The notes under the pieces were generated by a model. That model saw only the letters and a list, made by a program, of their open reading frames with translations, had not been told where the DNA came from and made no database searches. Both the position numbers and the translations under genes were made by a program. DNA of 16,143 bases. Source: Phycisphaerales bacterium. GTDB taxonomy: Bacteria > Planctomycetota > Phycisphaerae > Tepidisphaerales > Tepidisphaeraceae. The DNA lies in NCBI GenBank assembly GCA_003153655.1, contig PMAK01000245.1, forward strand, positions 1 to 16,143, given 5' to 3'. Shown here piece after piece: positions 2,673-14,610 of this stretch (its first letter is position 1; each line of letters begins with the position of its first letter).

Positions 2673-3791
2673 ATGAAGCGATTTACGTGCATCGACCTTT
2701 TTTGTGGTTGCGGCGGCTTCAGCCTGGGCGTGGAGCGCGCTGGGTTCACCGTTCTGGCCGCGATCGATTTCAACCAGGAAGCCATCGCCGTCTTTCGAAG
2801 GAATTTCCCGGACGTTCCGCAGGTATTGCAAAGGGATCTGACCAAGTTTCCCCCGCGCGAATTGGCGAAATTGATCATTACCAACGAAGTGGACGTGATT
2901 GTCGGCGGGCCGCCATGCCAGGGTTTTTCGACGGTTCGGCAGCGTGACGGAGCGAACAATGGGCCCCGAATGGTCGAGGATATTCGTCGCCATCTTTATC
3001 TGGAGTTTCTCCGTTATGTTGGCTTCTTCCGTCCCAAAGTGTTTGTCATGGAAAACGTCCTGGGGATTCGATCAGCGGCGGGCGGAAAATACTTTGCGAA
3101 GGTTCAGAAGGAGGCGAGGGCCAAAGGTTATCGGGTGCATCCGCAAATCGAAAAAGCGTTTGCACTGGGTGTGCCTCAGAAACGCCAGCGCCAGCTCATC
3201 ATTGGCACCAGACTTGACCTTCCCGAGTATTTCCGCAGTGAACTTGAACCTGCCCCGCGTGCAACGAGGCAGCCGTCACTCGGCGAGGCGATCGGCGATT
3301 TGCCGGCAGTCCGCGCTGGCAGCGGCGAAGAGGAAACCGATTACGACATGGAGCGACGGAAGGCGCACATCGCCAAGTACGGCCGGCGCTACCTATATGA
3401 AACATTGGAAGTGCGGCGTGCTGCCAAACTCACGGCGCACCGCGCACGTCCCCACAGCGAACGCGATCTGCGCGATTTCGCCAGACTTCGCGAGGGCGAA
3501 CATTGCGCGGAAGCAATGAAACGGGGGGAGATTTTCGAGTTTCCGTACGACAAGAAAACTTTCAAGGACCGATACACACGGCAACATCGGAATGAGCCAT
3601 GCTCAACCATCGTCGCCCATCTGAGCAAAGATGGCCTGATGTTCATCCACCCGACGCAAACCCGCTCGCTCACGCCGCGCGAAGCTGCCCGCGTGCAAAG
3701 CTTCCCCGACTGGTTTGCGTTCCCCATAGCGCGCACGCACCAATTTCGCGTCATTGGCATCGCTGTGCCGCCACTGAAAGTAAAGCCATAA
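2673..3791 (+). CDS. DNA (cytosine-5) methyltransferase, 3' end damaged
   Basis: Transfers a methyl group from S-adenosylmethionine to carbon 5 of cytosine in a specific DNA site. Visible motifs in this 372-residue product: I (DLFCGCGGFSLG, 8-19), IV with catalytic Cys82 (GGPPCQGFS, 78-86), VI (MENV, 126-129), VIII (QKRQRQLIIGTR, 169-180), a target-recognition region of about 210-320, and IX (REAARVQSFPD, 336-346). Motif X should read like GNAVPPL followed by a C-terminal helix. Here it reads GIAVPPL, with Ile replacing the highly conserved Asn, and stops after LKVKP. A different frame continues SKAIKIFSTEAKP to a TGA at 3839-3841, so a single missing base near 3776-3780 explains the loss of the tail. 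ATG 2673 was chosen because it is the conserved start just before motif I; GGGAG lies upstream. The recognition sequence cannot be read from the protein. The Vsr gene at 8127 is the natural repair partner. Confidence 0.9.
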   Translation: MKRFTCIDLFCGCGGFSLGVERAGFTVLAAIDFNQEAIAVFRRNFPDVPQVLQRDLTKFPPRELAKLIITNEVDVIVGGPPCQGFSTVRQRDGANNGPRMVEDIRRHLYLEFLRYVGFFRPKVFVMENVLGIRSAAGGKYFAKVQKEARAKGYRVHPQIEKAFALGVPQKRQRQLIIGTRLDLPEYFRSELEPAPRATRQPSLGEAIGDLPAVRAGSGEEETDYDMERRKAHIAKYGRRYLYETLEVRRAAKLTAHRARPHSERDLRDFARLREGEHCAEAMKRGEIFEFPYDKKTFKDRYTRQHRNEPCSTIVAHLSKDGLMFIHPTQTRSLTPREAARVQSFPDWFAFPIARTHQFRVIGIAVPPLKVKP

Positions 3792-3816
3792 AAATCTTCT
3801 CAACGGAGGCAAAACC

Positions 3817-4074
3817 ATGTGGAAAATCACAGATGACCTGATTGAGAATGGCAAGAAAGTTGGCACGTCCAGCTGTGACTTCATTGAAGCAAAGAACATA
3901 AAACTTAAGCACCGCTTCCGATTACTTGATGTGGATGGCGAAGTCTATTATGAAGGACTATCGGATGACTGCGACTCACAACGCGCCTTCGCGCCGTTGG
4001 ATGATTTTGGATGTGGTTACGCGGGTTGCTCGGAAATCCACTATTTGACGAACGGTGCTTGGTCGCCACTTTGA
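3817..4074 (+). CDS. Small acidic protein, 85 aa, unknown function
   Basis: Starts at ATG 3817 with a strong Shine-Dalgarno GGAGG (3805-3809) at 7 bases, the best ribosome site in this half of the window. It begins MWKITDDLIENGKKVG, followed by HRFRLLDVDGEVYYEGLSDD and an acidic C-terminal half containing PLDDFGCGYAGCSEI with two cysteines. There is no signal peptide or membrane segment. I recall similar small proteins annotated only as hypothetical. If the methyltransferase frameshift is repaired, that gene would end at 3841 and overlap this start by 25 bases, suggesting translational coupling and a shared operon. Confidence 0.8.
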   Translation: MWKITDDLIENGKKVGTSSCDFIEAKNIKLKHRFRLLDVDGEVYYEGLSDDCDSQRAFAPLDDFGCGYAGCSEIHYLTNGAWSPL

Positions 4075-4215
4075 GAATCTTATGCATGCCCATTTCGACA
4101 GTATTCAGATCGGCAGCGAGTGCGAGCGGAACAAGAAGATTTGGCGATGAAACCGCTAGTCGATGTTCCGCCGGATTGCGTAGACATCACCCGGCGACTA
4201 TGAATCTGCACTGGA

Positions 4216-6204
4216 ATGAACCGCGCCTACTACTCGGATACGATTACTCAGTTCCTCGCCAGGTCGCCTGACGAGATTCTTGGACAGCTCGTTCGAGGCG
4301 CGCGCGCCGATGGATGGAGCGCTGAAACCTCGCAGACGGACGCTTGGCTCGAACAGATTGCACTTCTGAAAGAGATTCTTGTGCCCTACCGGGACGAGGG
4401 CGCCATTTATTTTGAGTATGCGATTCCCCGTCTCGGCAGCCGGATCGATGCCCTTGCACTCATTCGCTCAGTAATCTTCGTCATTGAGTTCAAGACAGGT
4501 GAGGAGGATTTCACAGCATCCGCGTTCGACCAGGCCTCAGATTACGCGCTCGACCTAAAGAATTTCCACGAGACAAGCCACGCACTTCCCATTGCGCCGA
4601 TCGTCGTTCCGACGCGCGCAGAAAGCGCCAAAACGTCGATAGGGTACACCGCGCACGGCGACAACGTCATGCGCACGATGGAGGCGACGACGGAATCTCT
4701 AGGTGATGTGATTCGCCGTGTGTTGGACTTTGCACAAGGACAATCGATCGACCGCAGGGTTTGGGAGGCGGGCCGTTACCATCCAACGCCGACGATCATT
4801 GAGGCCGCGATGGCGCTCTACGGTGGTCACAAGGTGGAGGAAATCTCGAAGAAGGAAGCCGGTGCCGACAATCTTGCGGTTACTTCCAACACCGTTGACG
4901 AAATCATAAAGGCTTCGAAAACCAACAGTTGGAAATCCATTTGCTTTGTCACTGGCGTCCCCGGCGCGGGCAAGACCCTCGTTGGTCTGGACATCGCCAC
5001 GCAGCACTTTGACCCGAATTCTGAGCTCTACAGCGTTTTTCTGTCAGGCAATGGGCCGCTCGTCGCGGTGCTGCGAGAAGCCCTCGCCGCGGACAAAGTC
5101 CGGAGACTTAAGGAGAAGGGCACGCGCATCAGGATTGGCAAGGCGCGCAGCGAGGTGAAAGCGTTCATTCAAAACGTGCATCACTTTCGCAAAGAGTGCC
5201 TCGAGGATATGAATCGCCCGCCGATCGAGCATGTCGCCATCTTCGACGAGGCTCAGCGAGCTTGGGACCTTCGGCAAACGGCGAAGTTCATGCAGAAACA
5301 CGGTAAAGCTGACTGGGCGATGTCAGAGCCGGAATTCCTGATCTCATGCCTCGACCGACAACCTGATTGGGCCGTGATTGTATGTCTCGTCGGAGGCGGG
5401 CAAGAGATCAACACCGGCGAAGCGGGAATTAGCGAATGGCTCGACGCGCTAGCGAAATCCTTCCCGCAGTGGCGATTGTACATCTCGTCGCGCTTGACAG
5501 ATTCGGAGTACGGCGCTGGTCAGTTGGTTCAACAAGCCAAAGCACTACCGAACGTGACAATACAAGATGAGTTGCACCTGAGCGTCTCGATGCGGTCTTT
5601 CCGCGCCGAGAATGTGTCGCTGTTGGTCAAGCAATTGCTGGACCTGAACGAAGCGGCGGCTGCGGGAACGCTCGCCGAACTGCGCGAGCGCTACCCGATC
5701 TTCATGACGCGCGATCTTGGCAAGGCGAAGCAGTGGGTGCGAGAGAAGGCGCGCGGGAATGAACGATACGGGCTGCTTGCGTCCTCTTACGCGTACCGGC
5801 TAAAACCGCATGCGATCGATGTGCGGCTTCAGGTCGATCCCGTCCAGTGGTTCCTGTACGGGAAAGAAGACGTGCGCTCGTCGTTCTATCTCGAAGATGC
5901 CGCGACCGAATATCGCGTGCAGGGCCTGGAAGTTGATTGGGCCTGCGTAACGTGGGATGCGGACTTCCGCCGCGTCCGCAATGGTTGGGCGCACTACAAG
6001 TTCGTCGGCGACCACTGGAACCGCGTCCACAAGACCGACCGACAGAAATATCTCAAGAACGCGTATCGCGTTCTGCTCACCCGCGCTCGGCAGGGGATGG
6101 TGATTGTCGTGCCCAACGGCGAGAGCACCGACCATACGCGCAAGCAGGAATACTACGATCCGACGTTTGAATACCTCAGCTCAATCGGTTTTGCGACGTT
6201 GTAG
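4216..6204 (+). CDS. PD-(D/E)XK nuclease fused to DUF2075 SF1 helicase
   Basis: A 662-residue two-domain enzyme predicted to move on nucleic acid with ATP and cut it. The N-terminal domain (about 1-200) has a nuclease-type core: [18 protein letters not shown], then [10 protein letters not shown], giving Glu67, Asp78, Glu91 and Lys93 as the likely metal site. The helicase part (about 220-662) shows Walker A GVPGAGKT (247-254), Walker B IFDEAQ (342-347), a motif III-like CLVGGGQEI (390-398), motif [11 protein letters not shown] (569-578) and motif [11 protein letters not shown] (617-625). This matches the DUF2075 (Schlafen-type helicase) family known from bacterial defence contexts. The start [10 protein letters not shown] is typical for the family; the ribosome site is weak. 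It sits between a cytosine methyltransferase and an AIPR/Vsr pair, so I infer a restriction role in which methylation protects host DNA. It appears intact. Confidence 0.88.
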
Positions 6205-6269
6205 CCGCATCCGAACGCCTTACCATCACATGTACGGCATCAATATCGCGGAGAACAAACGCCGCGCAC

Positions 6270-6638
6270 TTGTCGGCGCGACGTTGCTCAAAGCGAAATT
6301 TGATCGCAGTGCGTACGGGTGCAGGCCCAATTGCTGCTGGTAAGCGCAGGATAGGGCGCGGCTTCGTGGCGTCGGAGGCTGTCCTTCGTAACGCCGTCGC
6401 AGACCACTTCAAACTCTTGCGCGGCTTTCTGCGGCGCGCACGCGAAGGATTTCACGTACAGTTGGAGGAGTCCCATGAATCATTTGAGGCTGCGAGGCGC
6501 ATTCACGAATCTCAAGACACGTTGACAACAGTGCGCCTGTTCCTTCTGACGGACGGAGTGGTCAAGTCCGCAGCCATCGATCAAGAGCAACTGCGGGGCT
6601 CGAAGTGCGATATGTGCTGTGGGATCTGGAAAAATTGA
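6270..6638 (+). pseudogene. AIPR-family 5' fragment, frameshifted from the 6605 ORF
   Basis: This frame (opening at a TTG, 6270) carries SEAVLRNAVADHFKLLRGFL, then LTTVRLFLLTDGVVK and AIDQEQLRG, which resemble the segment just before WDLEKL in AIPR (abortive infection phage resistance) proteins. The frame turns to nonsense at 6600, while the frame one base over continues LEVRYVLWDLEKL. Adding one G to the run at 6595-6598 joins them exactly. Family members usually have a further N-terminal region of about 100 residues, and no room for it remains after the helicase stop at 6204, so the gene is also truncated at the 5' side. A 37-codon ORF from ATG 6230 (MYGINIAENKRRALVG) overlaps in another frame and is not recognised. 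Confidence 0.7.
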
Positions 6639-8134
6639 GCCGTTTGCACGTCGGGCATCGCGAGGTAATCGAACTCGACTTTGTAAATAACTACGATGGA
6701 TCGATACCGTGTCTCCAGATGGCCGACGGCACGGGGGAATATCGAACATTCCTCGCGTTTTTCCCGGCACCATTGCTGGCTCGCATCTATGGCGAACATG
6801 GTCAGCGACTACTCGAACGGAATGTGCGGGCTTTTCTGCAGGCCAAGGGCAAAATCAATAAGGGACTTCAGCAAACATTACGTGAAGAGCCACACCGTTT
6901 TCTCGCCTACAACAATGGTCTGTGCTGCACCGCGGCGGAGGTGGCGCTGCAATCTGGCAAGGATGGGCAAGTCCGTCTGGAGCGTGTAAGCGACTTCCAG
7001 ATCGTGAACGGTGGCCAGACCACGGCCTCGATTTTCCACGCGTTAAAAAAGGAAAAAGTTGACATCTCGCAGGTGGTCGTGCAGGTGAAGCTAACTGTCT
7101 TGAGCGACCCTCAAACAGTAACGGAAATCGTGCCACTGATTTCGAAGTATGCGAACAGCCAGAACAAGGTGAACGGAGCGGACCTTTCCGCAAGCGGGAA
7201 GTTCCATCGTCAGTTGGAAAATCTCTCCCGCACGGTTTGGACCCCGCCGATATCAGGCATGGATCGCGGCACGCATTGGTATTACGAGCGTGCTCGGGGT
7301 TCCTATCTCGATGACAAGGCGCGACAAGGAACGCCGAAGCGGCAGCAGGATTGGGCGGAAAGCAATCCGCCAGAACGGAAATTCACAAAGACGGATCTCG
7401 CCAAATACGATCATGTATGGCTTGGCTTACCGAACATTGTTTGCCGTGGCGCCGAAAAATGCTTTCTGGCATTTGCGGAGAGATTGGAGGACGACGGCGA
7501 GCCGACAGTTGACTTGAACTACTTCAAATATACGGTCGCCAAGGCAATCCTATTCCGTACTGCCGAGAAGCTGTTCTCCACGCTGGCTTTGGATGGATAT
7601 CGCGCAAACACGGTCGCGTACGCAATCGCGTGGTTGGCGCAGCGTTCCCAACACCGGCTAGATCTTGTCCGTATCTGGGATCAGCAGCGTATTCAACCCG
7701 TGACTCAAGAAATGATAAAGGCTGTCTGTCAATCCGCGTACCTGCACCTTACACAAACCAGTGGCAACGTCGGAGAATGGTCAAAAAAAGCAGAGTGCTG
7801 GGAAGGCTTCAAAGGGTGTGATATCGCAATTGCGTCAGCTTGGGAAAGCGAGTGGGCTGATAGTCCATTTCTCACCAGTCCAACCGAACTGGACACCGTC
7901 GCCCAAGACTGGGAGCGAGTCCGAATTAAGTTTATCGATGATCCGAGAACTTTGGGAGAGTTGGAAGCCCTCGCCGGGAGAGAGTGGTTGGCCAGGCATC
8001 GAGGTGATGAGGTCCGTTCCTATGCAATGCGAAGCTGGGCGGATTTGAAAGGTCCGGGAGGTCGACGATATAAGAATGTGCGCGCCTTGGTTGAATTGTT
8101 CTCGGCTGCCGCTCTGCTTCACACAAATGCCTGA
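6605..8134 (+). CDS. AIPR-family protein, N-terminally incomplete
   Basis: The remaining frame opens at GTG 6605 and gives 509 residues. It begins RYVLWDLEKLSRLHVG and carries the family signatures RFLAYNNGL (98-106) and FQIVNGGQTTASIF (131-144). AIPR proteins were first linked to abortive phage resistance in lactococci and recur beside Vsr, cytosine methyltransferase and Z1/MORC ATPases in restriction-type systems; their biochemical activity is not firmly established. The GTG is only the first start codon after the frameshift and has no Shine-Dalgarno, so the native start is upstream. The end is intact and overlaps vsr by 8 bases, indicating one operon. Whether a functional protein is made depends on whether the missing G is real. 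Confidence 0.82.
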   Translation: MRYVLWDLEKLSRLHVGHREVIELDFVNNYDGSIPCLQMADGTGEYRTFLAFFPAPLLARIYGEHGQRLLERNVRAFLQAKGKINKGLQQTLREEPHRFLAYNNGLCCTAAEVALQSGKDGQVRLERVSDFQIVNGGQTTASIFHALKKEKVDISQVVVQVKLTVLSDPQTVTEIVPLISKYANSQNKVNGADLSASGKFHRQLENLSRTVWTPPISGMDRGTHWYYERARGSYLDDKARQGTPKRQQDWAESNPPERKFTKTDLAKYDHVWLGLPNIVCRGAEKCFLAFAERLEDDGEPTVDLNYFKYTVAKAILFRTAEKLFSTLALDGYRANTVAYAIAWLAQRSQHRLDLVRIWDQQRIQPVTQEMIKAVCQSAYLHLTQTSGNVGEWSKKAECWEGFKGCDIAIASAWESEWADSPFLTSPTELDTVAQDWERVRIKFIDDPRTLGELEALAGREWLARHRGDEVRSYAMRSWADLKGPGGRRYKNVRALVELFSAAALLHTNA

Positions 8135-8558
8135 TGTATTCACCAAAGTCGAGCGATCACGGGTCATGTCGGCCATCCGAAGCAGTGGAAATAAGGCGAC
8201 AGAACTGGCCATGATGCGGTTTTTCCGTCGCCAACGCATCACGGGCTGGAGGCGAAACCATGCGATCTTTGGCAAGCCAGATTTTACTTTTCCCAAACTG
8301 AAATTGGCGGTTTTTGTGGACGGGTGTTTTTGGCACGGTTGTCCAAAACACTCGAACATGCCAGTGAACAACCAACAGTTTTGGGAACGCAAATTGTCAG
8401 GAAACAAACGCCGGGACAAGCTGGTCGCCCGCGCTCTTCAAGCACGAAGCTGGCGGGTTTTTCGGGTATGGGAACACGAGCTTTCGCGCAAGAATGAGAA
8501 GGAACTGCTTCGGCGGATTCGACGGGCGTTGTCGATCACAGCGGTAGACGTTCATTGA
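8127..8558 (+). CDS. vsr: Very short patch repair endonuclease Vsr
   Basis: Nicks DNA 5' of the T in T:G mismatches that arise when 5-methylcytosine deaminates, starting short-patch repair and limiting the mutagenic cost of the methyltransferase. The 143-residue protein is full length. It begins MPDVFTKVERSRVMSAIRS and has KPDF (50-53) with the metal-binding Asp52, followed by FVDGCFWHGCPKHS (63-76) with the conserved Asp, Cys and His residues for catalysis and zinc. RVWEHEL (113-119) closes the fold. The ATG at 8127 lies inside the end of the AIPR gene (8-base overlap), so translation is probably coupled. The likely partner is the methyltransferase at 2673. The earlier in-frame start at 8076 lies within the AIPR gene and adds residues foreign to the family. 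Confidence 0.93.
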   Translation: MPDVFTKVERSRVMSAIRSSGNKATELAMMRFFRRQRITGWRRNHAIFGKPDFTFPKLKLAVFVDGCFWHGCPKHSNMPVNNQQFWERKLSGNKRRDKLVARALQARSWRVFRVWEHELSRKNEKELLRRIRRALSITAVDVH

Positions 8559-8583: not shown

Positions 8584-9411
8584 CTACCGCACCTGAAGCC
8601 TGCGAAGCAAATCATCGACCCGTTCAAAGGCATCCCGGATTCGAAGATCGCGGTCATCGCCTGGCGGGAGATCGTCGAAATCCGCGACCGCTTGGGGGCC
8701 GAAGTAGGCAGGCGATTTGAATTTGTCGGCGATCTTTGTCAGAGCTTCTTGCACCAACTTGTTGTGGAGGTGGGGCTGGAATGCAAGAGCCAGCGCGACG
8801 TTGCCGCCGGCGAAGTTTGTCAGACAGAACCACATATCCCACGCATCCTTGGCCTTGAGGCGATCTGCCAGCGCCATCGCCTTCATCACGATGAATGGAA
8901 TGACGCCGGCGACTTTGACCACGGCTGAATCGGCGGCGCCGCTGGGAAGGTGGCCTTCGATTTTGATCTGCTCGGACATTTTGAATACGAGGTCGCTGCC
9001 GCGCGCCTTGCGGGCCTTCAAAGATTGCACGGCTTGATGGCGGTGGCTCTTGCTCGTGCCCTGATATTCGCCCGCCAGGAAATCCACCTGCACTTTAACC
9101 GCTTGGCTGCGGACCGTCACAGTGCGAAAGAAAATGAACGGCTGCGACCCTTCTTCGTAACCATGTCTGGCCAGGTGTTCGCGTATCGTCCGGTATACAT
9201 CGGCGTCGATCGTGCGATGATCGAGCGCGATATCCACGTCGATACTGCCGACGTGCTTGGGCTGGGCGTTGGCAAACAGCAATTCCGGCACCCAGCCGCC
9301 GACTATGGCCATCGAATCTTTGTATTCGCCTAGGATGCGCACCAATTCCAACATCACCATGCGCGCGGCTTCCGTGGCCAGATCGGGATAGTCGATGCGA
9401 CGGCCTACCAT
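8584..9411 (-). CDS. AbiEii-like nucleotidyltransferase toxin
   Basis: A 275-residue protein with a DNA polymerase beta-type nucleotidyltransferase core: AIVGGWVPELLF (35-46, the GG step) and VGSIDVDIAL (54-63), with Asp58 and Asp60 as the likely metal ligands. This matches the AbiEii/minimal nucleotidyltransferase family, whose characterised members can act as toxins by modifying tRNA or other targets with nucleotides. The ATG overlaps the last 7 bases of the upstream antitoxin gene, the usual arrangement for type IV-like AbiE modules. It converges with vsr, with 25 bases between the two stops and no clear terminator. The substrate cannot be predicted from sequence. Confidence 0.85.
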   Translation of the reverse strand: MVGRRIDYPDLATEAARMVMLELVRILGEYKDSMAIVGGWVPELLFANAQPKHVGSIDVDIALDHRTIDADVYRTIREHLARHGYEEGSQPFIFFRTVTVRSQAVKVQVDFLAGEYQGTSKSHRHQAVQSLKARKARGSDLVFKMSEQIKIEGHLPSGAADSAVVKVAGVIPFIVMKAMALADRLKAKDAWDMWFCLTNFAGGNVALALAFQPHLHNKLVQEALTKIADKFKSPAYFGPQAVADFDDLPPGDDRDLRIRDAFERVDDLLRRLQVR

Positions 9412-10484
9412 GCAGGCTCCATGACGTTACTCAACAAGAAATCAGCGCCTTCCTCGCCGCGGCCTCGCAGGATGAAAAGGTCCAAATAGGTTTGCGGCGG
9501 TGAAGTAATCTTACAGCCTTCGATCTCCCGGCTGTCCAGATATACGCCCCGGTCGTACGGTTCCATCAACGTCACGTTGGCCCCACTGTCTACCGGCTTG
9601 AGCGACAACGTCTTGGCTAGGCCGTCGATATCCATATCCACATAGGCAAAGACGCGCTGGTAACGAACGGCCGGCGCATATCGCGCCGCTGCCGAGAATG
9701 CCGCCAGTGCATAGGGGGACGATTGCCGTTTGCAGGCGTCGGCGATCTTTTGCTCGATGGTAGTGATTGAATCCAAGGTAAAGAAATCATATCGACGGCT
9801 GCGGTCGAGCCGGTAGACGCGACGCCATTCGTCGAGAAGTTTTCGAGGTTGGGCGAGCTTCATGCCGCCCTCGCCGGACGCCAGCCATTCGCGCGCCTCT
9901 AGCAAACCTTTGACGTTTGAGACCAATCCCAAGCTGACGCCGGCGGCGGTCGCCAATTCCTGAACCTTCCAAGAGCGCTTCGGATCGCCCAGCAGCACAC
10001 GCAACACACTCTCAGCGCGCGGTGAATACAATGTGCGCAGGTCCCGCTTCTCAGTGAAACGATTTGCTCGTCCCTCGCGGCGAATGTAGACGGAGTCGAA
10101 GCAAAGGCGGCAGTTGCCCGCAAAATCAACGTAGCCGATGTCTTGCTCGGTAAGTTGCTCGCCGGTTTGGGGAGTGATGAAGGGCGCGGCGAAAACACCG
10201 TAGATGGACGGAGAAGATTGGCGAAGCAGCCGTAGATTCGTCGCGGCCTGCCGGGCGATGCGCGGTTGACCGCTGCTCTTTGCTTCGACGATGAGCCGCT
10301 TGCGGAGTTTTCCGAAGCGGGCAGAAATTTCTAGGTCGCGGCGGTCGTCGGTTCCCCGTTCGACAACGACCTCATCAATCTTGCTGAAGGGGATGTCCGC
10401 CAAGCATGTACGGATCGCGGCTTCCGCCTGCTGAATCAATGATTTTTCCGTGAGTGATTTCACTGAAATGTTCATCTTCGACAT
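9405..10484 (-). CDS. AbiEi-like antitoxin with N-terminal nuclease-like domain
   Basis: A 359-residue protein encoded directly upstream of the nucleotidyltransferase toxin. Residues 35-70 (VVVERGTDDRRDLEI then LIVEAKSSG) resemble a PD-(D/E)XK core with Asp50, Glu67 and Lys69, followed by DIGYVDFAGNCRL (115-127). A winged-helix follows at about 160-200 (VQELATAAGVSLGLVSNVKG), then an AbiEi-like C-terminal region. AbiEi antitoxins bind their own promoter through a winged helix and neutralise the toxin; most that I know lack the nuclease-like front. ATG 10484 is the first in-frame start; Met4 (10475) is possible. The predicted promoter at 10497-10525 places transcription only a few bases upstream, so the mRNA may be leaderless. 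Confidence 0.78.
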   Translation of the reverse strand: MSKMNISVKSLTEKSLIQQAEAAIRTCLADIPFSKIDEVVVERGTDDRRDLEISARFGKLRKRLIVEAKSSGQPRIARQAATNLRLLRQSSPSIYGVFAAPFITPQTGEQLTEQDIGYVDFAGNCRLCFDSVYIRREGRANRFTEKRDLRTLYSPRAESVLRVLLGDPKRSWKVQELATAAGVSLGLVSNVKGLLEAREWLASGEGGMKLAQPRKLLDEWRRVYRLDRSRRYDFFTLDSITTIEQKIADACKRQSSPYALAAFSAAARYAPAVRYQRVFAYVDMDIDGLAKTLSLKPVDSGANVTLMEPYDRGVYLDSREIEGCKITSPPQTYLDLFILRGRGEEGADFLLSNVMEPAW

Positions 10485-10785: not shown

Positions 10786-10802
10786 CATTGAGAGAAACTC
10801 CG

Positions 10803-11042
10803 ATGAAATACACTCCCGAGCAAATTGGCCAGCTCGTCAAGAAGGCACGGAAGACCCTGGGCGTGACGCAGAAGGATCTGGCTCTGACATCCGGCACCGG
10901 GCTGCGGTTCATTATTGAACTGGAACAAGGCAAATCCACTTGCCAGATCGGCAAGGTTCTGACCGTCCTGCATACGCTGGGTATCACGATGCAATTGACC
11001 CTACCAGCCGGCAGGGGCGCCGGGGAAAGGGTTAGACCATGA
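10803..11042 (+). CDS. hipB: HipB-like antitoxin, XRE-family HTH regulator
   Basis: A 79-residue DNA-binding protein that neutralises HipA and represses the operon. The helix-turn-helix is clear at about 5-60: IGQLVKKARKTLGVTQKDLA followed by the recognition helix region TGLRFIIELEQGK. ATG 10803 was chosen over the in-frame TTG at 10788 because GAGAGAA sits at a suitable distance and MKYTPEQIG is a typical start. The stop overlaps the hipA start as ATGA (11039-11042), so the two are translationally coupled. The last ten or so residues (AGRGAGERVRP) are arginine- and glycine-rich and are coded by a G-rich stretch that looks foreign to the domain. Confidence 0.9.
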   Translation: MKYTPEQIGQLVKKARKTLGVTQKDLALTSGTGLRFIIELEQGKSTCQIGKVLTVLHTLGITMQLTLPAGRGAGERVRP

Positions 11043-12286
11043 AACGCAAACTCGATGTTTATCTACACCGGCATTTGGTTGGCAACCTCGTCCAGGACGA
11101 GCATGGACAGATCACTTTTGATTACGCCGAAACATGGCTGAAAGACCCGGCGGCAATCGCTCTGTCACACTCTTTGCCGCTTACCAAAAAGCATTTCAAC
11201 CGAAACGAATGCCGGGGATTTTTCGCCGGCATTCTGCCGGAGGAAAGCAAACGCGAGATTATTGCGAAGAATCTTGGGATCAGCGCCAGAAACGATTATA
11301 CGATGCTGGAGCGGATCGGCGGTGAATGTGCCGGAGCCGTGACGTTCCTGCCAGCGGGAACGGAACTCCCGGGACGCGAAGACAATTACCGCGCTCTCAC
11401 GGACAAGGAACTGGCCGAGATTCTGAAGGCGTTGCCGCGCCGGCCGCTCATGGCGGGAGATGAAGGCGTCCGTCTTTCCCTCGCTGGGGCACAGGACAAA
11501 ATCGCGGTGCATGTATCGGGAAACAAAATCTCGATCCCGCTTGGGGGAGCGCCCAGCACCCACATCCTCAAACCAGCCATCGAACGATTTGAAGGCGTGG
11601 TCTTCAACGAAGCCTTTTGCATGAAGCTGGCCCGCGCGATCGGCATGGACGCGGCCCATGCGGAAACCGGCCAGGTTGAAGGCATCGACTACGTGCTCGT
11701 CGAGCGGTATGACCGGACCACTTCATTGGGCGCTTCCCGTGCTACTCAAACCTTGAAGCGCGAGCATCAGGAGGACTTTTGCCAGGCGCTTAGTATCGTC
11801 CCGGAAAACAAATATCAGGCCGAGGGCGGACCTTCGCTCAAGCAATGCTTCGCGTTGGTACGCGATGCGTCTTCCGCTCCGGTCATTGACTTGCAAGGCT
11901 TGCTCGATGCGGTGATTTTCAATTTCCTGATCGGCAACCACGACGCGCACGGGAAAAATTTCTCATTCCTGTACACGGGCGGGCAGACTCGCCTTGCGCC
12001 GCTCTATGATCTGCTCAGCACCAGCTATTATCCGGAACTCTCGCCGAAAATGGCGATGAAGATCGGCGGTGAATATTTATCCGCCAAGGTCGCCGTGAAA
12101 CATTTTGAGACCTTGGCGGAAGAGGCTGGCCTTGCCAAGCCGATGGTCAGGCGCCGCGTTTCGGAACTGGCGGAGCTGATCTTGTCGAAGATGCCGACGG
12201 TGACAATAGACCTTCCCGTTGCCCTGGCCGTTGCCAAACTGATTCAAGGCAATTGCGATCGCACGATAAAGAAATTCAAGGAGTAA
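11039..12286 (+). CDS. hipA: HipA serine/threonine kinase toxin
   Basis: A 415-residue kinase of the HipA family. The best-known member phosphorylates glutamyl-tRNA synthetase and stops growth, giving persistence. Visible landmarks: SLAGAQDK (147-154), holding the regulatory serine at the P-loop-like turn; HILKP (175-179) with the ATP-binding lysine; VERYDR (221-226); the catalytic loop FLIGNHDAHGKN (296-307) with Asp302; and LAPLYDLLS (319-327) with the metal-binding Asp324. All key residues are present and the length is normal, so it is probably active. It is coupled to hipB by a 4-base overlap and shares its operators. No terminator is visible before the next gene at 12328, which might be co-transcribed. 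Confidence 0.92.
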   Translation: MKRKLDVYLHRHLVGNLVQDEHGQITFDYAETWLKDPAAIALSHSLPLTKKHFNRNECRGFFAGILPEESKREIIAKNLGISARNDYTMLERIGGECAGAVTFLPAGTELPGREDNYRALTDKELAEILKALPRRPLMAGDEGVRLSLAGAQDKIAVHVSGNKISIPLGGAPSTHILKPAIERFEGVVFNEAFCMKLARAIGMDAAHAETGQVEGIDYVLVERYDRTTSLGASRATQTLKREHQEDFCQALSIVPENKYQAEGGPSLKQCFALVRDASSAPVIDLQGLLDAVIFNFLIGNHDAHGKNFSFLYTGGQTRLAPLYDLLSTSYYPELSPKMAMKIGGEYLSAKVAVKHFETLAEEAGLAKPMVRRRVSELAELILSKMPTVTIDLPVALAVAKLIQGNCDRTIKKFKE

Positions 12287-12327: not shown

Positions 12328-14610
12328 GTGTCGGATACCTACGACCTCCACAACCTCGGATGGCACAGTTTTCAGCAGCTTTGTTTGACGATAACGCGCG
12401 AAATTCTTGGCCAGACCGTTGAGTCTTTCTTGGATTCGTCAGATGCTGGAAAGGATGGCGCGTTTGCTGGGACTTGGAATTCTGTGAAGGGTGAATCTCT
12501 AAGCGGTCGCTTCGTCATTCAGTGCAAATTCACGAGCAAGCGCGATAAGACATTGGGGAAGTCAGATATTGCTGATGAAGTGGAAAAGGCGCGTCAACTG
12601 GTCAAGGCGGGTCGCTGCGACTCCTATATTCTTATGACGAATGCCGGAGTCTCGGGGGCAACTACTGAAAGTTTAGAAGACCTCTTTAAGGCGGCGGGCG
12701 TAGAGCATTTTCGGTCGTTCGGGTCAACCTGGATATGCCAGCAAATTAAAGAAAACAAGCGGCTACGTATGCTGGTGCCAAGAATATACGGCTTGGGCGA
12801 CCTGAGCCAAATTTTGGATGAGCGGGCGTACTTGCAAGCTAAGGCGTTGCTTGCTTCCCTTAGGGAAGAGCTTTCGAAAGTCGTGTTAACGGCCGCATAT
12901 CGCCGCGCTGCTGAGGCGCTGAACAAGCACGGTTTTGTGCTTTTGGTTGGGGAGCCAGCCGCTGGAAAGACAACGATTGCCGCAATGCTTTCCGTCGGGG
13001 CGCTCGATCAATGGGGCGCGTCAACGCTCAAGCTGGATACCGCTCACAAAATAGTTGAACGATGGAACCCAGATGAGCCCTCGCAGTTCTTTTGGATCGA
13101 TGATGCCTTCGGCGTGCTGCAATACGAATCGTCTTTGGTGCATGAATGGAATCACGCGCTTCCCCAGGTTCGCGCAATGCTGCGCAAAGGGGCCAAGATT
13201 GTGATGACATCTCGTGATTATATCTACAACCGCGCGAGAAATGATTTGAAGGAGGGAGCGTTCCCGTTATTTCAAGAAAGTCAGGTCGTGATCGACGTTC
13301 GCGACCTAACAACTGAGGAAAAGCAACAGATTCTTTACAACCATATTAAGCTTGGGAAACAGAAGCGGGCATTTCGCAAAGCGATTAAGCCTCATTTGAT
13401 CTACATAGCCAATCACTCGCGGTTCGTACCCGAGACTGCCCGACGACTATCTGACCCAGTGTTTACCAAGGGATTGACGCTGACGGATGCCGAACTAAAT
13501 GATTTTGTGAACAAACAGGAACGATTTCTTCAAGAGGTAATAACTGGTCTGGATGCCGATAGCAAAGCAGCTCTCGCTCTCATCTACATGAGAGATGGCT
13601 CTCTTGAAAGTCCCGTTGAGTTGGAGGATTCGGAACGAGAAGCGCTCGAAAGACTCGGCAGCGGTCTGGGTAAATGCATTACGGCGCTAGATTCGCTTAA
13701 CGGCAGCCTTGTCCAGTTCGTCAATCTCGAAGGGAATGCGATTTGGCGGTTCAAGCACCCGACTATAGGTGACGCCTACGCGGCGCTTTTGCTTCGCCGT
13801 CCAGAATGGCTTGGCATTTATGTCCGCGGTGCTCCACTGGACAAATTACTCGGACAAATAACTTGCGGAGAAGTTGGACTCGAAAAGGCTGTGATCCTGC
13901 CAAAGACGCTCTTTCCTTTGATTCTAAGGCGTTTGGATGAGACTGCTTCGGTAACACAACACAAAACGGCATGGTTGCGGGACTGGCATTCACGCCATCG
14001 CGTCGATGATTTCTTAGCCTCCCGCTGTTCGGTAGAGTTTTTGACAGAGTATCTACGCCGCCACGAGAACGTGTTTGAACGGGTATCGAGGCCTGGCCTT
14101 TCCCTGAATGCAGTGTCCGAGGTCGATTTGGCAGTTCGGCTGAATCAGCTGGGGCTTTTGCCCGAAGAATACCGCGAACGGTTTGTGAGGACAGTTGTTG
14201 AATACACCATTCAAGGTGATGACTTTTATGCGATAGAGAGTCGTGGGATTCAAGGCATCTTTACACCCGATGAGCTTGCGACTCTCCATGACCGGGTTCG
14301 GCGCGAACTCGTACCTAATCTTGCCGATGTACGACGCAACTGGCAAAGCAACTACGACACGGACCGGTCTCCAGACGATCACATGCAACCACTTTTAGAT
14401 GGTTTTTTGCAGTTGAAGAGAACATTTGCCGGTAATCGTAAAGTCATTCAGGCGATTGATCGGGAGATTGAATTGGCAAATGACTGGATTGCAGACAAAT
14501 CTAGCGAAGAACCCGAAAGAGATCGTCCCGTCCGCAAGTTTGGAGACGTCAATTCACCCGAGCAGCCAATTCCGAGTTCCCGCAGTCTTTTCGACGACAT
14601 TGACGAATAA
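12328..14610 (+). CDS. Mrr-like nuclease fused to STAND NTPase (nSTAND3-like)
   Basis: A 760-residue protein with the build of an Avs-type phage sensor. Residues 8-130 form a PD-(D/E)XK domain: LGWHSFQQLCLTITREILG, Asp43 in AGKDGAF, and RFVIQCKFTSK with Gln65 and Lys67. Next is a P-loop NTPase, with Walker A GEPAAGKT (208-215), Walker B FFWIDDAFG (254-262) and the sensor-like TSRDY (294-298), matching what I recall of the nSTAND3 group. The remaining 430 residues are helical and probably bind the trigger; the end is charged and disordered-looking (EEPERDRPVRK). STAND proteins oligomerise on recognising a foreign component and activate the effector, here predicted to cut DNA. The start is GTG 12328 with a weak AGAGAAA site, 41 bases after hipA. 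The gene looks intact. Confidence 0.85.
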   Translation: MSDTYDLHNLGWHSFQQLCLTITREILGQTVESFLDSSDAGKDGAFAGTWNSVKGESLSGRFVIQCKFTSKRDKTLGKSDIADEVEKARQLVKAGRCDSYILMTNAGVSGATTESLEDLFKAAGVEHFRSFGSTWICQQIKENKRLRMLVPRIYGLGDLSQILDERAYLQAKALLASLREELSKVVLTAAYRRAAEALNKHGFVLLVGEPAAGKTTIAAMLSVGALDQWGASTLKLDTAHKIVERWNPDEPSQFFWIDDAFGVLQYESSLVHEWNHALPQVRAMLRKGAKIVMTSRDYIYNRARNDLKEGAFPLFQESQVVIDVRDLTTEEKQQILYNHIKLGKQKRAFRKAIKPHLIYIANHSRFVPETARRLSDPVFTKGLTLTDAELNDFVNKQERFLQEVITGLDADSKAALALIYMRDGSLESPVELEDSEREALERLGSGLGKCITALDSLNGSLVQFVNLEGNAIWRFKHPTIGDAYAALLLRRPEWLGIYVRGAPLDKLLGQITCGEVGLEKAVILPKTLFPLILRRLDETASVTQHKTAWLRDWHSRHRVDDFLASRCSVEFLTEYLRRHENVFERVSRPGLSLNAVSEVDLAVRLNQLGLLPEEYRERFVRTVVEYTIQGDDFYAIESRGIQGIFTPDELATLHDRVRRELVPNLADVRRNWQSNYDTDRSPDDHMQPLLDGFLQLKRTFAGNRKVIQAIDREIELANDWIADKSSEEPERDRPVRKFGDVNSPEQPIPSSRSLFDDIDE

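Follow-up and report, generated by a model that had tools for sequence, protein, structure and literature searches.

The 16,143-nucleotide stretch analysed here (the window; positions 1 to 16,143 of contig PMAK01000245.1, assembly GCA_003153655.1, Phycisphaerales bacterium) carries a nuclease-helicase, PDC-S41, which appears to occupy the place expected of the core genes in a methylation-linked defence operon. The gene stands in a row with a C5-cytosine methyltransferase (MTase), a small protein, an AIPR gene and a vsr gene. The five adjacent genes are probably a patchwork rather than one new system, since comparable replacements, with other cut points, occur in further bacteria. A preliminary description of this DNA had read the five genes as a single restriction-type system in which the helicase stands where operon core genes are expected; the latter part of this interpretation is supported, whereas the former is not. 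The order of the five same-strand genes that it gave is borne out by gene calls (a simple longest-open-reading-frame script) and by profile matches, and the coordinates agree:

2673..3791, + strand: C5-cytosine methyltransferase, reading through motif X (PF00145, E 3.4e-61)
3817..4074, + strand: 85-aa protein, no Pfam, PADLOC or NCBIfam match
4216..6204, + strand: PDC-S41 nuclease-helicase, 662 aa (PF09848, E 4.4e-80; PADLOC PDC-S41, E 9.2e-278)
6378..8134 (main open reading frame 6605-8134), + strand: AIPR / MzaE-type gene, interrupted (PF10592, E 7.6e-91)
8127..8558, + strand: Vsr mismatch endonuclease, full length (TIGR00632, 103 bits against a cut-off of 98, model 1-119 of 119)

The nuclease-helicase and its neighbourhoods

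Residues 1-661 of the window helicase match positions 1-652 of the 657 in the PADLOC model PDC-S41 (E 9.2e-278), and all 41 homologues scanned match this model at full length. We take the label PDC to mean "phage defence candidate". From its sequence, the protein is predicted to be a PD-(D/E)XK-like nuclease region fused to an SF1 helicase of SLFN group 3. E67, D78, E91 and K93 (E91-x-K93), Q106 and the residues of the helicase motifs are invariant among the 41 aligned homologues; the former set is read as a putative PD-(D/E)XK site. The AlphaFold2 model (mean predicted local distance difference test score 77.8, weak at 516-581) resembles SF1 helicases (UvrD, RecD) and the Schlafen proteins SLFN14 and SLFN11. 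Matches at E<=1e-30 are present in 48 of the 392 genomes of the phylum sample, distant paralogues counted, and the best 80 of 534 confirmed GTDB stretches provided loci from many phyla with helicases 59-77% identical. Two members of the phylum sample, G382 and G166, have helicase DNA identical to that of the Planctomycetota loci L051 and L042, and Draconibacterium, Maribellus and Longilinea are among the carriers. Three loci, two from Omnitrophota and one from Bacteroidota (L020:466-3231, L029:7221-9974, L062:6731-9874), have a MazG-like gene and a second SLFN-group-3 helicase upstream of PDC-S41. In L020, the one locus checked against Pfam, this second helicase contains an S24 peptidase domain as well.

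The neighbourhoods were compared in 98 helicase loci including the window, with flanks of up to 10 kb that are shorter at contig ends; L021, L133 and L134 were excluded for identical helicase DNA. Genes of vsr, MTase or MZA type lie within 1.5 kb of the helicase in 28 of the 98 loci and of none of 30 AbiEii genes, so the helicase is near such genes far more often than AbiEii genes are, and more often than by chance. This test and the AIPR/paralogue comparison were run without references from helicase loci, while the AbiEii control used the full reference set, which favours the control; AbiEii genes and paralogues were both drawn from the window's phylum only. Five references used for piece scans and junction scoring derive from helicase loci (L014, L005 and the window). 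With whole loci and all references the count becomes 30 of 98; the vsr piece of L035 is present but goes uncounted in the 1.5-kb test.

A regular pairing of nuclease and C5-MTase, as expected of a Type II restriction-modification (R-M) system, is not seen, a C5-MTase piece being present in just 13 of the 98 loci; in nine of these it precedes the helicase in the same orientation. The co-occurrence survey that the preliminary description proposed found all five families together in the window alone (0 of 97 other loci), with four of the five in L041 and likewise in L137.

Cut neighbours and the vsr site

The genes adjoining the helicase tend to be cut on the side that faces it. Among 33 junction genes within 500 bp of the helicase (25 loci), mean loss of the reference is 35% at the helicase-facing end versus 10% at the far end. 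The facing side is worse in 24 junctions, the far side in four (L016, L052, L075, L139), and five fall within the margin (sign test 2e-4, the loci not all being independent). The MTase of L004 stops at residue 323 of 557 against the helicase; the vsr of L035 starts at residue 102 of 137, eleven bases past the helicase, and the AIPR of L145 at residue 212 of 702, eighteen bases past it. Helicase and junction gene are on opposite strands in L009, L042, L045, L052 and L077, and the stretch common to helicase loci is about gene-sized. In the mechanism that we consider most likely, PDC-S41 would act by itself as a translocating nuclease, and would have come to lie within vsr/MTase/MZA-type operons through repeated replacement.

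Several observations weigh against replacement by PDC-S41. Within 1.5 kb, 70 of the 98 loci have no vsr/MTase/MZA-type piece, and the paralogue control taken alone (one of 15 paralogous helicases adjoins vsr, in L193) gives no significant difference. The loci are related, so the counts overstate independence; L014/L079 and L038/L063 have flanking genes in common too, and further flanking stretches are common to L010/L013 and L045/L052. The missing half of a broken vsr was found beyond the helicase in none of the loci examined, and simple insertion is therefore not demonstrated. Breakpoints vary between loci, which argues for no fixed target site, and no transposase or terminal repeat was recognised on viewing the ends by eye, no systematic search having been made. 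The truncated AIPR of L145 has a dN/dS of 0.10 against that of L157, with no visible decay. In the window, L005 (last residues altered) and L135, all or nearly all of the MTase is retained, which is not what a purely destructive insertion predicts. Finally, genes other than PDC-S41 are also found at broken vsr copies.

This last point came from seven vsr regions inspected among those of the phylum sample, where vsr is present in 79 of the 392 genomes: five in which vsr is truncated and PDC-S41 absent (L214-L218), plus L219 and L220. The truncated vsr runs into other restriction-type helicase-nucleases in L214 (type IV-like) and L217 (PDC-S37-like), reaches contig ends in L215 and L216, and is set among small genes in L218. 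In L219, the end of an intact vsr is adjoined by a C-terminal helicase remnant of 132 residues (5338-5733, - strand), and in L220 an intact vsr is preceded by a vsr fragment. The vsr site accepts several restriction-type helicase-nuclease genes, and targeting specific to PDC-S41 is consequently not demonstrated. An explanation that overlaps with replacement is that vsr/C5-MTase loci act only as a landing pad, where defence and toxin-antitoxin genes are exchanged in general and PDC-S41 is one guest among others. The two helicase-nucleases among the five truncated loci, the paralogous helicase beside vsr in L193, and repeated vsr 5' fragments that flank small genes on both sides in L214 and L159 all speak for it, and we give it a little less than even credence.

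Repeated vsr 5' copies (first 60-200 bp or more) are seen at L022:8753-9969, L159:2885-5665, L157:5142-5800, L214:4627-6677 and L134:7455-8634; several precede a small gene, a DUF433/DUF5615 pair or the PDC-S41 helicase, and the copies resemble array junctions at the vsr 5' end. Elsewhere (L014:11928-12947, L079:1882-2859), the helicase, a 199-aa (in L079, 185-aa) protein and an intact vsr form a tight array. The middle protein is HNH-like by eye, that of L014 being without a Pfam match, and the downstream DNA of the two loci is about 91% identical despite their distant lineages.

The other genes of the window

The MTase and the small gene differ from the preliminary description, which held that the MTase needs repair and that, once repaired, the small gene would overlap it. 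The reading frame 2673-3791 ends in IGIAVPPLKVKP and a stop, reaching motif X, and the small gene begins 25 bp past its end. Motifs I, IV, VI, VIII and X are all present (DLFCGCGG, GPPCQ, ENV, QKRQR and GIAVPP, the last as IGIAVPP); the last differs from the usual GNAVPP in having Ile in place of Asn. The window thus holds the complete C5-MTase expected of a Type II R-M system with C5-MTase and Vsr. Its closest relative among the loci examined is that of L041 (Geobacteraceae, 68% identical), and no match at E<=1e-75 was found across the 391 other genomes of the phylum sample. The 85-aa protein occurs among the 98 helicase loci in the window and L041 only; the other relatives found lie on seven plasmids and one viral contig, and no annotated or obvious R-M operon was seen in the four plasmid regions and the viral contig inspected.

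It is possible, though not likely, that MTase and helicase function together as a hybrid in the loci that keep a full or almost full MTase (the window, L005, L135). The upstream, same-strand position of the MTase in nine of 13 loci and its reading to or near its end in these three are consistent with this, as is the repetition of the order MTase, small gene, helicase in L041 (68/61/61% identity), though the two helicases fall in different clades of a quick-method tree.

The best PADLOC and NCBIfam models for the window AIPR are MzaE. The gene is split across frames, with reference residues from about 87 to 170 at about 6378-6600 and those from about 155 onward at about 6554-7830 in another frame; comparison with reference AIPR proteins recognised none of the first ~90 residues upstream. 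The frame change may be genuine or may stem from a sequencing error. The AIPR-vsr overlap described earlier does exist, at 8 bp when vsr begins at 8127, the Met aligned with the starts of other Vsr proteins, and at 59 bp from the first ATG of the reading frame, but the AIPR gene itself is not whole.

Beyond vsr, an AbiEii/AbiEi-type pair adjoins it at 8584-10484 (- strand), and a gene at 12328-14610 (+ strand) combines Mrr_cat with an nSTAND3 NTPase and matches the PADLOC candidate PDC-S73 in part. Between them (10788-12286, + strand) is a gene pair that we take to be HipB/HipA-like; the second gene is related to genes in the helicase loci L019, L024 and L041.

Remaining explanations and known systems

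A stronger version of replacement, which we consider unlikely, would make PDC-S41 a self-mobilising single-gene selfish element that breaks vsr/C5-MTase/MZA-type operons, enters the break as a copy, target DNA being lost, and spreads by destroying rival methylation-linked systems, at times keeping the MTase as a partner. A single restriction-type system made up of all five genes is suggested by their order and spacing in the window and by the four-gene loci L041 and L137; the uniqueness of the full set, the interrupted AIPR, the plasmid and viral relatives of the small protein and the 70 helicases lacking such neighbours make it decidedly improbable. A chimeric contig is very improbable, for although the draft assembly (4.65 Mb, 304 contigs, 88% complete) has one of these genes out of frame, like junctions occur in other assemblies, including genomes in one or few contigs (G024, G088, G168).

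The MZA defence system reportedly consists of mzaABCDE, as set out by Gao et al. in 2020, a study cited in PMC9523054. Compared through the PADLOC models MzaB-E, the window has no match to MzaB, MzaC or MzaD, and its MzaE-type gene lies in two frames with no recognised start and an NCBIfam MzaE score of 321, far under the cut-off of 1050. The nuclease-helicases Nhi and AbiO have no full-length match to the window helicase, being matched only around the ATP-binding region (PADLOC, E 2e-6 and 5e-7). In the available portion of PMC2292703, MORC/paraMORC R-M neighbourhoods contain DCM, Vsr and AIPR, and so have C5-MTase, Vsr and AIPR in common with the window; the helicases named there are SFII, whereas the window lacks a GHKL ATPase and has an SF1-type SLFN-group-3 helicase fused to a nuclease region. 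No description of PDC-S41 replacing MZA-type cores, or lodging recurrently in MZA-type operons, was found in the literature searched, including the available portions of PMC2292703, PMC9523054, PMC8011034, PMC3710099 and PMC12839542.

Replacement by PDC-S41 would amount to an exchange repeated across several lineages, the multi-gene core of a methylation-linked defence operon giving way each time to a single nuclease-helicase gene. Should PDC-S41 suffice by itself, the origin of the hybrid loci would be explained, and the case would caution against inferring a system from gene order; if the MTase-helicase hybrids cooperate, replacement would have made a very short R-M system. Either way, vsr/C5-MTase loci may serve as a search ground for unknown nuclease-helicase defence genes.
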